From: Hydrogenobacter thermophilus TK-6
GTDB lineage: Bacteria; Aquificota; Aquificia; Aquificales; Aquificaceae
Direction: 5' to 3'
Assembly: GCF_000010785.1 (NCBI RefSeq)
Contig: NC_013799.1
Location: 1,488,001-1,552,000 of the forward strand
DNA length: 64,000 bases
Positions 28,318-34,430 of this stretch are shown in pieces. The number at the start of each line of letters is the position of its first letter. Positions within the stretch are counted from its first letter, which is position 1. The position numbers were made by a program, and so were the translations under genes. A model generated the notes under the pieces. The model searched no databases. It was given only the letters and a program-made list of their open reading frames with translations, and was not told the DNA's origin.

Positions 28318-28536
28318 TTATTTTTCCCCTTTCTGAGGAAGCTCAAATATCTTGTAAAGTAGTTGTCTTATTTCTCTTATGTCTTGCTCTATCCTGTCAA
28401 GCCTCTTGTCCATTTCACTAAACCTTCTGTCCATATCTTGTCTTAGGTCATCAATACGCTTGTTGAGCAGATTAGCCACTATGCCTATAACGGCAGTAAG
28501 ACTGGCTATAACAGTGAGAGCTTGCACCCACTCCAT
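28318..28536 (-). CDS. Tandem micro-gene copy 3: membrane helix plus coiled coil
   Basis: 72 residues. Starts MEWVQALTVIASLTAVIGIV (one membrane helix, residues 4-24) then ANLLNKRIDD and a charged heptad coiled coil (RRFSEMDKRLDRIEQDIREI) ending RQLLYK and LPQKGEK. Distal copy of three near-identical genes. Compared with copy 2 it has one extra heptad. The ATG follows directly on the stop of copy 2 (TAGATG), with GGAGGAGAAG just before. Overall plan resembles small Bdr/DUF1640-like anchored coiled coils; function unknown. Confidence 0.75.
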   Translation of the reverse strand: MEWVQALTVIASLTAVIGIVANLLNKRIDDLRQDMDRRFSEMDKRLDRIEQDIREIRQLLYKIFELPQKGEK

Positions 28537-28734
28537 CTACTTCTCCTCCCTGTGTGGAGCCTCAAAAGCTTTGTAAAGCAGCTGCCTTATCTCTCTTATG
28601 TCCTGCTCCAGTCTGTCCAGCCTTCTGTCCATATCTTGTCTTAGGTCATCAATACGCTTGTTGAGCAGATTAGCCACTATGCCTATAACGGCAGTAAGAC
28701 TGGCTATAACAGTGAGAGCTTGCACCCACTCCAT
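28537..28734 (-). CDS. Tandem micro-gene copy 2: membrane helix plus coiled coil
   Basis: 65 residues, the shortest copy. The first 38 residues, through RRIDD-type positions and RQDMDRR, are the same as copy 3 except where copy 3 has its inserted heptad; the end is FEAPHREEK as in copy 1. No spacer on either side: stop TAG of copy 1 touches its ATG and its own stop touches the ATG of copy 3. Probably oligomerises through the coiled coil, possibly with the other copies. Confidence 0.75.
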   Translation of the reverse strand: MEWVQALTVIASLTAVIGIVANLLNKRIDDLRQDMDRRLDRLEQDIREIRQLLYKAFEAPHREEK

Positions 28735-28962
28735 CTACTTCTCCTCCCTGTGTGGAGCCTCAAAAGCTTTGTAAAGCAGCTGCCTTATCTCTCTTATCTC
28801 TTGCCTTAGCTCTCTTATGTCATCCTTGAGGTCATCTATACGCCTGTTTGTATCCTCAATGCGTCTATTTGTGTCCTCAATACGCTTGTTGAGCAAATTA
28901 GCCACTATGCCTATAACGGCAGTAAGACTGGCTATAACAGTGAGAGCTTGCACCCATTCCAT
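28735..28962 (-). CDS. Tandem micro-gene copy 1: membrane helix plus coiled coil
   Basis: 75 residues, first of the array in transcription order. Same N-terminal helix, then a longer coiled coil built from R-I-E-D-T-N-R repeats (RIEDTNRRIEDTNRRIDD) and DDIRELRQEIREIRQLLYK. Ten residues longer than copy 2 between the fixed ends. Short AT-rich upstream region (GATATATTTAACGCT before ATG) back to back with the promoter of the Fe-S carrier gene. Confidence 0.75.
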   Translation of the reverse strand: MEWVQALTVIASLTAVIGIVANLLNKRIEDTNRRIEDTNRRIDDLKDDIRELRQEIREIRQLLYKAFEAPHREEK

Positions 28963-29825: not shown

Positions 29826-30582
29826 GACTTATTCCAAGCTCCTTAAGTAGGAGATTCTTAAGTCCTTCCGGGTCTAAGTTCCTATAAAATCTCTCGTCAA
29901 CGGCTACGGATATCTCACCTGTCTCTTCGGATACCACCACCGCTATAGCGTCGCTTTCCTCCGCTATGCCCAGTGCTGCTCTGTGCCGTGTTCCGTATTT
30001 TTTGGGAAGGTCCGGAGATTTGGAAAGTGGTAATATACAGGATGCAAAAGCTATTCTATCACCTCTTATGACAACAGCTCCATCGTGCAGAGGTGTTAAA
30101 GGGTCAAAGATGGTTATTAAGAGCTCAACAGAAACTATGCTATCTATGGAGACGCATCCCTCAATTAGCCCCTCTATGTTCTGTCCTCTTTCTATGACTA
30201 TGAGAGCTCCTATCTGTCTTTCGGAGAGAAAGCTGCAAGCTCTAACTATTCTCTCCACCACCCTCTCCTCAACAAACTTTATGCCTACCACGTGTGTCCT
30301 CTGCCCCAGTCTTGAGAGAGCCTTCCTTATCTCAGGCTGAAATATGACTACTATGGAAAAAAGCCCCACAGCCCAAAACTTGTCAAAGATCCACGAAAGA
30401 GTCCTGAGCCCCAAAAGCTCCGCAAAAATCCAAAAAGAGCCAATAAACACAAGACCCTTAAGTATTTGAAAGCCTTTGGTGATTTTCAAAAAGTGTATAA
30501 CCATGTATATGAAAAAAGAGACTGCTACAATATCTATAATGTCCCTGAAGGAGAAGAATTTTAAAAAATCAAAATTCACCAT
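29818..30582 (-). CDS. cdaA: Diadenylate cyclase CdaA
   Basis: 254 residues. Three N-terminal membrane helices, then the DAC (DisA_N) domain with the catalytic DGA of PLHDGAVVIRGDRIAFA and the RHR of YGTRHRAALGIAEESDA. Makes c-di-AMP from two ATP at the membrane. Lies between folP (14-bp overlap) and cdaR; glmM, the common third partner, is absent here. Confidence 0.95.
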   Translation of the reverse strand: MVNFDFLKFFSFRDIIDIVAVSFFIYMVIHFLKITKGFQILKGLVFIGSFWIFAELLGLRTLSWIFDKFWAVGLFSIVVIFQPEIRKALSRLGQRTHVVGIKFVEERVVERIVRACSFLSERQIGALIVIERGQNIEGLIEGCVSIDSIVSVELLITIFDPLTPLHDGAVVIRGDRIAFASCILPLSKSPDLPKKYGTRHRAALGIAEESDAIAVVVSEETGEISVAVDERFYRNLDPEGLKNLLLKELGISHA

Positions 30583-31753
30583 AAGTCCTTATCGTATCCA
30601 GCAAAGCAAGAAACTCTTTTGTTTCCTTAACATCATGCGTCCTTACAATATTGGTACCTTCTATAACCGCATAAGCAAGGGCACCAAGGCTTCCGTATAG
30701 CCTCTCCCTTGGTTCTGTCTTCTTTCTTAGCAAACCCTCTATAATCAAGCCTATAAAAGACTTCCTTGATACACCAACCAGCAGAGGAAGTCCAAAAACT
30801 TTAAGCTCTCTGAACCTTTTGAGTATCTCTACATTATGCTCAGGGAGCTTACCAAACCCTATGCACGGATCCAGTATTATATCACCTTTGTGTCCTTTTT
30901 GTCTGAGCTTTTGCACGCCTTCTTCAAACCACTCCACTAACTCCTGCATCACATCCTCGTATATTATGGTCATGTGCTTCCACTCCTCCGGCCTTCCCTT
31001 TGTGTGTCCCATCACATAAGGACAGCTATAAGTGGCTATCACATCAAACATCTTTTCATCAAAACTGCCACCGCTTATGTCATTTATCATGTCCGCACCT
31101 TCTTCCAAGCACGCCTTTGCCACCTGCGACTTATAGGTGTCTATGGATATCCATATATTGGGAAGCTCTTTTCTGAGTTCTTTAAGCACTGGAAGGACAC
31201 GCTTTAGCTCCTCATCGGTACTTATCCTCTCGGAGCCTGGTCTTGTAGACTCACCGCCTATGTCTATGATCTCCGCTCCCTCCTGTGCCATCTGAACACC
31301 TCTTTTGACCGCCTGCGCAACATCCATATAGAGACCACCATCAGAGAAAGAGTCGGGAGTTACATTGAGCACACCCATAACAGCAGTTTTTATTCCAAGT
31401 GGCAGCACCTTGTAGTTGTACTGGAGTTTGAAGGACTTTTTTCTGTAATTTATGAGACCTTCAAGTATCTTAAAGGATAAACTCTTGTGTTTTTTGACAA
31501 TGCAGGAGCAAAAATCCCTTATCCTTGCCTCACTTCCGCATATGGCATATCTACCTTCCTGATAAAAGATAGAAATGCAAGAGCTTCTGGCACAATCAAA
31601 CAAAAGGCTCGGGTCTGTATTTTTGTCTTCAAAGTATATAACATGAAAAATCCCCTCAAAAGCTCTGCTATCCGCCTCTTTAAAGAATATGCCCACTTTT
31701 TCCTTCAGAAATCTGTAAAAAGCATCTCTGTCTTTAAAGCTTTTGATGAGCAT
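30569..31753 (-). CDS. folP: Dihydropteroate synthase with N-terminal extension
   Basis: 394 residues, against about 280 in the usual enzyme. The catalytic TIM barrel starts near residue 123 with TAVMGVLNVTPDSFSDGG, followed by AEIIDIGGESTRPGS, ISIDTYKSQVAKACLEEGAD, INDISGG, ILDPCIGFGK, GVSRKSFIG and NIVRTHDV. The first 120 residues (Cys-rich, with DCARSSCISIFY and DFCSCIV) match no part of DHPS that I know. Makes dihydropteroate from pABA. The start codon is 1 bp from the left 25-bp repeat that bounds the methylase insertion. Confidence 0.93.
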   Translation of the reverse strand: MLIKSFKDRDAFYRFLKEKVGIFFKEADSRAFEGIFHVIYFEDKNTDPSLLFDCARSSCISIFYQEGRYAICGSEARIRDFCSCIVKKHKSLSFKILEGLINYRKKSFKLQYNYKVLPLGIKTAVMGVLNVTPDSFSDGGLYMDVAQAVKRGVQMAQEGAEIIDIGGESTRPGSERISTDEELKRVLPVLKELRKELPNIWISIDTYKSQVAKACLEEGADMINDISGGSFDEKMFDVIATYSCPYVMGHTKGRPEEWKHMTIIYEDVMQELVEWFEEGVQKLRQKGHKGDIILDPCIGFGKLPEHNVEILKRFRELKVFGLPLLVGVSRKSFIGLIIEGLLRKKTEPRERLYGSLGALAYAVIEGTNIVRTHDVKETKEFLALLDTIRTYGEF

Positions 31754-31754
31754 G

Positions 31755-31779
31755 ATAAATAGTATAATCTTTGGAGCAT
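31755..31779. repeat. Left 25-bp direct repeat flanking the restriction-modification insertion
   Basis: Begins ATAAATAGTATAATC and ends TTTGGAGCAT; identical base for base to 33808-33832. In its right copy it holds TATAAT and GGAG ahead of the tmk ATG; this left copy sits 1 bp from the folP start and supplies TATACT on the minus strand. Its sequence matches what would have been the whole intergenic region between divergent folP and tmk. Confidence 0.9.
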
Positions 31780-31947
31780 CCCCTGGGTGATTTTTAACTG
31801 AATACCATTGTACTTGAATTCATACATACTACCATGAAAGATGATATAATTTTTTAGATGAGAGTGTTCACGATGCACTGGACTTATATACTTGAACTTG
31901 GAAATTAGGGTGGAGCATAATAAAATCCTTAGGCAGAGGTGTGGTTG

Positions 31948-32799
31948 ATGCATAAAACTAACACATCGGCTGTAGTATTAAATCAATTGAAAAAACCTAA
32001 ACCTTTTGTTAAGTGGGCTGGTGGTAAAAGACAATTGATAAATTTATTAATCGATAATTTACCGATAGAGTATGACACATATATAGAACCTTTTATTGGA
32101 GGAGGTGCATTGTTGTTTGAGATTATGCCAGATAGAGCAATTATAAATGATATAAACGAGGAGCTTATAAATGCATATAAAGTTATAAGGGACAGCTTAA
32201 CAGAACTCATAGAAAGCCTTAAACAACATAAAAATGAAGAAGGTTATTATTATAAAGTAAGATCACTGTCTCCAGATAAACTATCTCCAGTAGAAAGAGC
32301 TAGCAGGTTTATATATTTGAATAAAACTTGTTTCAATGGACTTTATAGAGAGAATTCAAAAGGACAGTTTAATGTTCCTTTTGGGAAATACAAAAACCCT
32401 GTAATAGTAGATGAAGAGAATTTAAAATTAGTTTCTGATTATTTAAACACGGCAAATGTAGAAATCTATAATACAGACTATAAAGAAATTTGTAAATTGG
32501 CTAAAAAAGGAGATTTTGTTTACCTGGATCCCCCTTATTATCCTCTAACAAAGACGGCATCTTTTACAAAATACAATAAACATGATTTTACAGAGCAGGA
32601 TCATTTAGAATTACGTGAGGTATTTGAGGAATTGGATAAAAAAGGCTGTTATGTAATGTTGTCTAATTCAAATACTGAGTTTGTAAAGGAGCTTTACAGA
32701 GGCTATAATATTTTGGAAATAGAAGCGAACAGGTTTATAAACTGTAAAGGAGACAAAAGAGGGAAAGCAAAGGTTGAAATTTTGGTAAAAAATTATTGA
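31948..32799 (+). CDS. DNA adenine methyltransferase (Dam/M.DpnII family)
   Basis: 283 residues, group alpha N6-adenine methylase. SAM motif FIEPFIGGGALLFE appears as EPFIGGGALLFEI, the catalytic motif IV as FVYLDPPYYPLTKT, and the family start PFVKWAGGKRQLI is present. Members related to Dam and M.DpnII methylate GATC, and the partner gene downstream is of the MutH/Sau3AI type, which also reads GATC; specificity is thus inferred. ATG at 31948 follows GAGGTG; a GTG three codons earlier is less likely. AT-rich and foreign-looking next to its neighbours. Confidence 0.93.
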   Translation: MHKTNTSAVVLNQLKKPKPFVKWAGGKRQLINLLIDNLPIEYDTYIEPFIGGGALLFEIMPDRAIINDINEELINAYKVIRDSLTELIESLKQHKNEEGYYYKVRSLSPDKLSPVERASRFIYLNKTCFNGLYRENSKGQFNVPFGKYKNPVIVDEENLKLVSDYLNTANVEIYNTDYKEICKLAKKGDFVYLDPPYYPLTKTASFTKYNKHDFTEQDHLELREVFEELDKKGCYVMLSNSNTEFVKELYRGYNILEIEANRFINCKGDKRGKAKVEILVKNY

Positions 32800-32854
32800 G
32801 AAGACAATTTTTATTAATCCTATGTCTATTATATTTTTTTAGGTAGGGTGCTAA

Positions 32855-33475
32855 ATGGAAAGAAAAGATGCTTTAGAAAAAGGTAAACAGCTAATAGGAA
32901 AAGACTTGAGAGAGCTTGCAGATAAATTGGGGATTACTGTATTCAAAAGAGAGAAAAATAAAAGAAAGAAAAATAAAGGTTGGGCTGGACATGTTATTGA
33001 AAGATATTTGGGGCTTCCTTTAAATTCCGCTCAGTCTCCTGACTTTGGTTCTTGGGAATTAAAAGTAGTATCGTTAAAATACTTAAAGTCTGGAGAATTA
33101 ACTGTTAAATAAACAATGGCTATCACTATGATAGATCCTTATAATGTTTTACAAACACCATTTGAAGAAAGCCATTTATTACGAAAGTTACAAAAGATGT
33201 TAATATTTGCACGAATTTGGGAAGGATTAGATGAACCTCGCTCAGTGTTATATGGAATATACGAATTTGATTTAAGAGATAAAGAGTTGTATGAACAAAT
33301 CAAAAAAGATTATGAATTAGTAAGGAATACTATCAAGGTAAAGGGTTTTAATGCTTTAACAGGAAAGATGGGGGTATATGTACAACCAAGAACTAAGGGA
33401 GAAGGACATGGAAGTACAACTAGAGCCTTCTATGCAAGAAAAACGTTACTACAAAGAATCATTTTTAATAAATGA
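32855..33475 (+). pseudogene. MutH/Sau3AI-family restriction endonuclease interrupted by an in-frame TAA
   Basis: The first 85 residues show the family start (GKDLRELADKLGI) and the catalytic D...ExK of PDFGSWELKVVSLKYL, then end ELTVK-TAA at 33110-33112. The same frame continues T-MAITMIDPYNVL through DYELVRN and VYVQPRTKGEGHGSTT to the normal end, so one codon (probably GAA, Glu) has become a stop. Total 206 codons fits the family. A downstream ATG at 33116 could start the second half alone, but it would lack the active site. Either a dead nuclease or a sequencing error. Confidence 0.85.
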
Positions 33476-33490
33476 ATTTCAGAAGGAGAA

Positions 33491-33658
33491 ATGGTTATAT
33501 CTTTAAATACTATTCTTAATACGCTGAGTGAGAAATTAAGCATGATAAAGCACCTCCTCAAAGCTCTCTCTGAAAAAGCTATAGCCAATAGCATAACCAT
33601 ACAGCAAGGCGAGCAGAGTTATGTCCTTCCTCCCTTCACATACTCACATTCCCTATAA
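33491..33658 (+). pseudogene. Start of a third insertion gene, running into the IS remnant
   Basis: AGAAGGAGAA precedes an ATG at 33491, and 11 codons (MVISLNTILNT) are read before the left IS end at 33523. The frame then stays open through the IS to a stop at 33658 (55 codons). Most simply, the IS cut off a third gene of the methylase operon soon after its start. The identity of that gene cannot be told from 11 residues. Confidence 0.35.
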
Positions 33659-33805
33659 CCCCTATCCCCCATAAGCTCAAACTTATCCAGCAGCCATCTT
33701 AGCCATCCACTATGATTTAATAGTTTGGGGGTTATTATAACAGCCCCCTGCCCTCAAAGGACTTTTTGCTATGAAACTAAAGGCTTTCTGAATTTCTCAC
33801 TCAGC
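33523..33805 (-). mobile_element. Internally deleted insertion sequence with 15-bp inverted ends
   Basis: GCTGAGTGAGAAATT at 33523-33537 is repeated inverted at 33791-33805. On the minus strand between them is the C-terminal part of a DDE-type transposase: AVIITPKLLNHSGWLRWLLD, then KFELMGDRGYRECEYVKGG with the DRGY motif, a frameshift, and RKDITLLALLYGYAIGYSFF ending just inside the left terminal repeat. The N-terminal two thirds are deleted, so it cannot move itself. The right end lies 2 bp from the right 25-bp repeat. Family likely IS4/IS982-like, not certain. Confidence 0.75.
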
Positions 33806-33807
33806 CT

Positions 33808-33832
33808 ATAAATAGTATAATCTTTGGAGCAT
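33808..33832. repeat. Right 25-bp direct repeat, tmk promoter region
   Basis: Identical to 31755-31779. Contains TATAAT (33816-33821), GGAG and the first two bases of the tmk ATG. Given the short distance from TATAAT to the ATG, a transcript starting here would have almost no leader. Confidence 0.9.
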
Positions 33833-34430
33833 GAAAGGATTTCTTATAACCCTTGAAGGTATTGACGGCTCTGGAAAGACAACGCAGGCAAACCTCCTTT
33901 ACGAATACCTAAGGAGCAAAGGTCATAAAGCTTCCTTATACAGAGACCCCGGAAGCACCCCTCTGGCGGAGAAGATAAGAGAGCTTATCATGAGCTTTTC
34001 ACTGGACCCTATAACGGAGCTTCTGCTTTTTGAAACTGCACGCTCAAGCCTTGTGTGGGAAAAAATATTGCCAGACCTCCAAAAGGGTAATGTGGTTATA
34101 GTGGACAGGTTCATAGATTCCACCGTTGCCTATCAGGGTTATGGTAGGGAGATAAACCTTGGAACTGTGAATGTGCTCAATCACATAGCAACAAGGGGGA
34201 GAAAGCCGGACCTGACTTTTATCCTCCATGTCCCGCTGGAAGTAGCACTGAGCAGAATAGGGAAAGACAAAACCAAGTTTGAAGATAAAGATTTCCTCAG
34301 AAAGGTAAGAGATGCTTACTTTCTTATACAGAGTTCTGAGAAAGAGAGACAAATCTATCTCATAGATGCCAACAGGGAAAAGGAGGAGGTCTTTAAGGAG
34401 ATAGTTAAAATAGTGGAAAGTAGGTTATAA
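33831..34430 (+). CDS. tmk: Thymidylate kinase
   Basis: 199 residues. P-loop LEGIDGSGKTTQANLL, the dTMP-binding DPGSTPLAEKIRELI (DPG in place of the usual EPG) and DRFIDSTVAYQGYGR, with TFILHVPLEVALSRI and a short lid. Phosphorylates dTMP to dTDP. The beginning of the coding region lies in the 25-bp repeat created or used by the upstream insertion, which has replaced anything that lay further upstream. Confidence 0.95.
   Translation: MKGFLITLEGIDGSGKTTQANLLYEYLRSKGHKASLYRDPGSTPLAEKIRELIMSFSLDPITELLLFETARSSLVWEKILPDLQKGNVVIVDRFIDSTVAYQGYGREINLGTVNVLNHIATRGRKPDLTFILHVPLEVALSRIGKDKTKFEDKDFLRKVRDAYFLIQSSEKERQIYLIDANREKEEVFKEIVKIVESRL

Follow-up and report, generated by a model that had tools for sequence, protein, structure and literature searches.

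A restriction-modification (RM) gene pair of foreign origin lies between folP and tmk in Hydrogenobacter thermophilus TK-6, and it is bounded by two identical 25-bp direct repeats of host sequence. We suggest, with a probability of about two-thirds, that a foreign RM fragment was inserted here with a 25-bp duplication of its target, either at a staggered break or by template switching. All coordinates are those of the window, the whole stretch of 64,000 nucleotides that was analysed.

The 25-bp repeat and its setting

The 25-mer ATAAATAGTATAATCTTTGGAGCAT is found on the plus strand at 31755–31779 and again at 33808–33832, and the two copies are 100% identical, which verifies the claim of an earlier note on this DNA. 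Exactly two copies exist in the genome (a single contig of 1,743,135 bases), even when up to 3 mismatches are tolerated. The background of such repeats was taken from 15 stretches of 20 kb, with 364 kb of genome sampled altogether. The remaining exact direct repeats of at least 25 bp with a spacing of 0.3–6 kb were all part of longer gene duplications, and chance can thus be ruled out for the 25-bp repeat. No duplicated tmk or folP leader was found nearby in sister species. Elsewhere in the window, three tandem near-identical genes for small membrane proteins (28318–28962) contain exact repeats of 177 and 60 bp.

The left flank is folP, encoding dihydropteroate synthase (30569–31753, minus strand; TIGR01496, E = 3.8e-96), and the right flank is tmk, encoding thymidylate kinase (33831–34430, plus strand; TIGR00041, E = 5.8e-51). 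Both copies had been placed at start codons. This is correct for the left copy, which is separated from the folP ATG at 31753 by a single base, the G at 31754, whereas the right copy overlaps the tmk ATG at 33831 by its A and T, without the G. Deletion of one copy together with 31780–33807 (2028 bp) makes folP and tmk divergent neighbours with a gap of 24 bp, in agreement with the earlier figure of about 25 bp. Direct repeats of host sequence are present at both ends of the insert, and each end of the 25-mer is similar to the leader of a host gene.

Origin and state of the RM genes

The first gene of the insert, at 31939–32799 on the plus strand, encodes an N6-adenine DNA methyltransferase of the Dam/DpnII family (PF02086, E = 5.8e-72; TIGR00571, E = 1.8e-94; PDB 2dpm, M.DpnII, E = 1.2e-78). 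Its listed start is GTG, with an alternative ATG at 31951. It is followed on the same strand by a MutH/Sau3AI-like restriction endonuclease gene at 32855–33475, which is split by an in-frame TAA at 33110–33112 into open parts of 85 and 119 aa. The position of the stop is a Glu codon in all three intact relatives, which have 79–85% identity to this gene. Of the features of a type II GATC RM system, the Dam-family methylase is present (TIGR00571, PF02086, PDB 2dpm), but the intact cognate endonuclease seen in the relatives is absent. GATC specificity of the pair is predicted from these families. The ELK residues of the nuclease motif precede the stop, so the truncation is probably, not certainly, inactivating, and an ATG two codons past the stop could restart the 119-residue part. 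Restriction has probably been lost, then, with the methylase left as an orphan. The restriction-modification content described in the earlier note is indeed the payload of the insert, although its endonuclease is broken. The nuclease belongs to a family of about 200-aa single-domain MutH/Sau3AI-like proteins encoded beside DNA methylases in Aquificota and viral contigs (32855–33475 here; L195, L196, L197, L222, and L223). Most members have the motif PNF.SWELK, with Asn at the position where the window's copy has Asp.

The composition of the RM genes is foreign. Their GC content is 0.31–0.32 and their GC3 is 0.22–0.24, compared with about 0.43 and about 0.45 for the neighbours folP, tmk, and bcp. 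The endonuclease was detected in just four genomes out of 136 from Aquificota, namely the window's genome and three (G093, G094, and G070) from another family, f2, of the same order. In each of the latter, the endonuclease is intact and has the same methylase upstream, and the gene context is different each time. Horizontal entry of the RM pair is thus well supported, as is the AT-rich character that the earlier note had cited in support of recent acquisition. The methylase is more widely spread, with some match in 58 of 136 Aquificota genomes. Its tree is poorly resolved, and the window's copy groups loosely with a set composed mostly of genes from family f2; this resolution is too weak to name a donor. 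The endonuclease was not found beside the Dam-like methylases of other Aquificaceae. Two genomes (G005 and G029) have a conserved protein of 188–189 aa encoded upstream of the methylase (L126:6502–7068; L127). It has no Pfam match and is a candidate endonuclease.

Is the repeat a property of the RM module? At four RM loci and eighteen methylase loci, the window's included, no flanking repeat longer than 13 bp was found other than the 25-mer. Accordingly, an RM cassette with conserved flanking repeats was rejected, and the duplication is specific to this event. Carriage of close relatives on plasmids or phages was also rejected, as only distant homologues were found there (24–30% on two plasmids, 45% on a single large phage record, and 43–60% on viral contigs).

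Edges of the insert

The 2.03 kb between the copies had been taken as one insertion. However, 285 bp of it (33522–33806) are a separate IS remnant or miniature inverted-repeat transposable element (MITE), and the original insert is about 1741 bp (31780–33520). The MITE has terminal inverted repeats, CGCTGAGTGAGAAATT, and is flanked by TA at 33520–33521 and 33807–33808. Other ends of this family are scattered across the genome and those of relatives, in most cases beside TA. Thus, the inverted ends, TA flanks, and other genomic copies of a TA-targeting MITE are all present. The second base of the right TA is also the first base of the right 25-mer. The MITE probably entered after the RM segment, since a MITE that had entered earlier should sit between folP and the left repeat.

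At the left edge, the 27 bp at 31780–31806 (plus strand) are a fragment of a dispersed repeat or one-sided IS end, and the match begins exactly at the edge of the 25-mer. The fragment matches at 26 of 27 positions a site in G003 beside a decayed transposase, and at 21 of 24 positions two intergenic sites in G097. It abuts the 25-mer with its inner side, not its tip, and no inverted partner was found for it. Further in, upstream of the methylase, a stretch at 31841–31891 on the plus strand is like a dispersed repeat (GTGTTCACGATG...) of genus g20, of family f2, and genus g10, of the window's own family. Its identity is about 78–82% to several loci of G097, G100, and G102 and to one locus each in G018 and G025. 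At the right edge (33481–33520, plus strand), there appears to be a ribosome-binding site followed by the start of a truncated reading frame, which stops after a few codons. An RBS and an ATG reading frame are also found 3′ of the endonuclease at one related locus (L196), with a different sequence. Judged by their sequence, the ends of the insert look ragged, and neither seems to resemble the tip of a transposon. The insert has no transposase or integrase gene, and the only transposon-derived DNA in it is decayed, so the earlier observation that no integrase is present holds.

A probable former folP–tmk junction

The tmk leader and −10 element are conserved in sister species as TATAATCCTTCAGAGC followed by ATG. 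The right copy contains this −10 element, TATAAT, and the tmk end of the 25-mer is thus native to tmk. The folP leader in three sisters is CTTAAACTATTATC followed by ATG, the opposite strand of which, GATAATAGTTTAAG, closely resembles the left copy at its folP end, GATAAATAGTATAA. The leaders were aligned with anchoring at the start codons, and the nulls were genomic sequence and Markov sequence of the 25-mer. The 14 folP-proximal nucleotides align to the leaders of G015, G023, and G006 with a score of 9 (P ≤ 0.0005 with the genomic null and 0.0015–0.0045 with the Markov null), and the 15 tmk-proximal nucleotides align to the tmk promoters of the same species with P of 0–0.006, in a comparison of about 14–15 nt of AT-rich sequence per end in which the three folP leaders of the sisters hardly differ and are not independent. 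The stretch similar to folP leaders and that similar to tmk promoters lie at opposite ends of the 25-mer. If the 25-mer is native to both genes, they once shared it, and a single-copy divergent folP/tmk junction probably existed formerly; the alignments make a good, not a decisive, case for it.

The folP and tmk leaders of G015 (L120 and L116) are unlinked and have a 13-mer in common, ATAGTTTAAGTTA, whose register is that expected from the 25-mer. The other AT-rich upstream regions in this comparison set share less than 13 bp, orthologous folP leaders excepted. The 13-mer may be the microhomology that joined the genes, or it may be a relic of an older duplication.

The earlier note also held that a promoter remains with each displaced gene, which is only partly borne out. 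Both −10 boxes are duplicated: that of tmk lies in the repeat, as does TATACT on the opposite strand, 7 nt before folP. Complete promoters are not duplicated, as no −35 element lies within the 25 bp. For tmk, the closest match to a −35 hexamer is now TTCTCA at 33794, inside the end of the MITE.

Both folP and tmk were found in 51 of 61 sampled Aquificaceae genomes, the window's included. In none of the 50 others are they adjacent, and no empty site was found there; viral contigs also gave no empty-site pattern. Outside the window's genome, the closest pair sharing a contig is separated by about 23 kb (G012), and the other genomes that are complete have at least 100 kb between the two genes. 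In the sister species, folP follows pgm–mobB (G006, G015, and G023) or a peroxiredoxin gene (G030), and the mobB of the window's genome is far off, at 10 kb on the chromosome. The surroundings of tmk also vary in the genus: G006 and G023 have a hydrogenase gene there, G015 another gene, and G030 a DNA methylase. As folP and tmk are unlinked elsewhere, either they were joined in this lineage before the insertion or the link was lost in the sisters.

Proposed mechanism and alternatives

In the proposed course of events, a foreign fragment of about 1.74 kb, carrying a presumably GATC-type RM pair derived from a relative in another Aquificota family, would have entered the 24-bp intergenic region between the divergent folP and tmk. 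Before insertion, the junction would have been folP-CAT-GATAAATAGTATAATCTTTGGAGC-ATG-tmk, in a single copy. Breaks staggered by 25 bp and then filled in, or template switching, would leave a direct copy of 25 bp at each end, and each copy would retain the −10 element of one gene and the context of its start codon. The element would have used no transposase or integrase of its own. Later, the TA-targeting MITE would have entered the right junction and the endonuclease would have acquired its stop codon, probably leaving an orphan methylase. We infer capture at a staggered break because of the nature of the insert ends and the absence of a mobility gene. The ragged ends, together with RM relatives that have no such flanking repeats, argue for fragment capture over transposition. 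Capture of a linear fragment, or template switching, thus appears preferable to transposition, IS-linked movement, and site-specific integration. The insertion with target copying put forward in the earlier note remains the best explanation of the unique repeat, the foreign RM genes, and the hybrid 25-mer, although the search for an empty site in relatives yielded none.

Two other readings concern the history of folP and tmk. The RM segment could already have been upstream of tmk when a rearrangement joined folP to its far side with a 25-bp copy of the tmk promoter, so that folP and tmk were never neighbours. The tmk-like part of the 25-mer is clearly native to tmk, and the folP–tmk adjacency, unique to the window's genome, and the differing surroundings of tmk across the genus show that a rearrangement certainly occurred. 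This reading, however, leaves to chance the likeness of the 14 folP-proximal nucleotides of both copies to folP leaders, and it must add a copying event to account for the placement of exactly 25 bp; we consider it unlikely. The insertion could instead predate the species. Here, folP and tmk would be ancestrally divergent, RM insertion with duplication of the promoter would have made them independent, and the genes would later have separated in G015, G006, and G023, each with part of the duplicate. The ATAGTTTAAGTTA shared by the two leaders of G015 has been offered in support. We regard this as distinctly improbable; if true, insertion of a selfish RM unit uncoupled two essential genes and permitted operon rearrangement.

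The remaining alternatives concern the means of entry. An IS-like remnant lies at either edge, and IS-linked movement of RM genes has been shown experimentally (PMC3031569), so the left IS end and the right MITE might have mobilised the RM pair, e.g., by aberrant one-ended transposition as for PaeR7I. But the two remnants differ in family, and it is the inner side of the left one, not its tip, that meets the junction. The MITE is flanked on either side by a TA of its own, which explains its entry separately. Furthermore, a duplication of 25 bp is much longer than TA or than the 4 bp (IS5) and 8–10 bp (IS1) reported in PMC3031569. We judge such movement very unlikely. A composite transposon was rejected, as the same IS is not present at both ends. 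Long exact repeats around a cargo at a gene edge, with intact flanking genes, would also suit site-specific integration, with the 25-mer as the core of an attachment site, shared with a circular RM element, and a recombinase supplied in trans. However, the insert has no recombinase gene, the 25-mer is nowhere else in the genome within 3 mismatches, and the related RM pairs are in unrelated contexts with repeats of at most 13 bp, and we judge this reading very unlikely as well. An integrative element with its own attachment sites was rejected because the element lacks a recombinase gene.

Comparison with known systems

Nobusato et al. (2000) described RM genes inserted with long target duplications in two Helicobacter pylori genomes, as cited in PMC1643837, PMC3874152, and PMC3031569; according to PMC3874152, the duplications are on the order of 100 bp. 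As in H. pylori, the RM genes of the window lie between otherwise intact neighbours, with direct copies of host DNA on both sides and without a transposase or integrase. The window differs in its duplication of 25 bp rather than on the order of 100 bp, in its target, which is a divergent promoter, in its Aquificota host, in the decay of the RM unit, and in having no empty-site strain among the genomes sampled. The kind of mechanism is thus already known, mainly from Helicobacter, and the Aquificota case is a clear new example. In the movement of PaeR7I in E. coli, duplications of 4 bp or 8–10 bp were determined by the IS (PMC3031569). IS material is likewise found at the edges of the RM genes here, but the duplication measures 25 bp, and the event seems to have had nothing to do with the IS remnants. 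A Dam/DpnII-family methylase adjoining a MutH/Sau3AI-like nuclease is also the arrangement of DpnII/Sau3AI-type GATC RM systems. Unlike Sau3AI (509 aa, PDB 4pxg chain), the window's nuclease is about 205 aa with a single MutH-like domain and an in-frame stop, and its specificity is predicted.

The case suggests that RM genes can enter the very short divergent promoter of two housekeeping genes with both unharmed, because the target is copied. It can also be dated by its layers, with the RM insertion followed by the MITE, and the nonsense change in the endonuclease at some point.

A further RM-type case, independent of this one, is seen in another Hydrogenobacter species (G030), in which an N4/N6 DNA methylase gene, apparently truncated, is found 7 bp upstream of tmk (L226:2973–4119).
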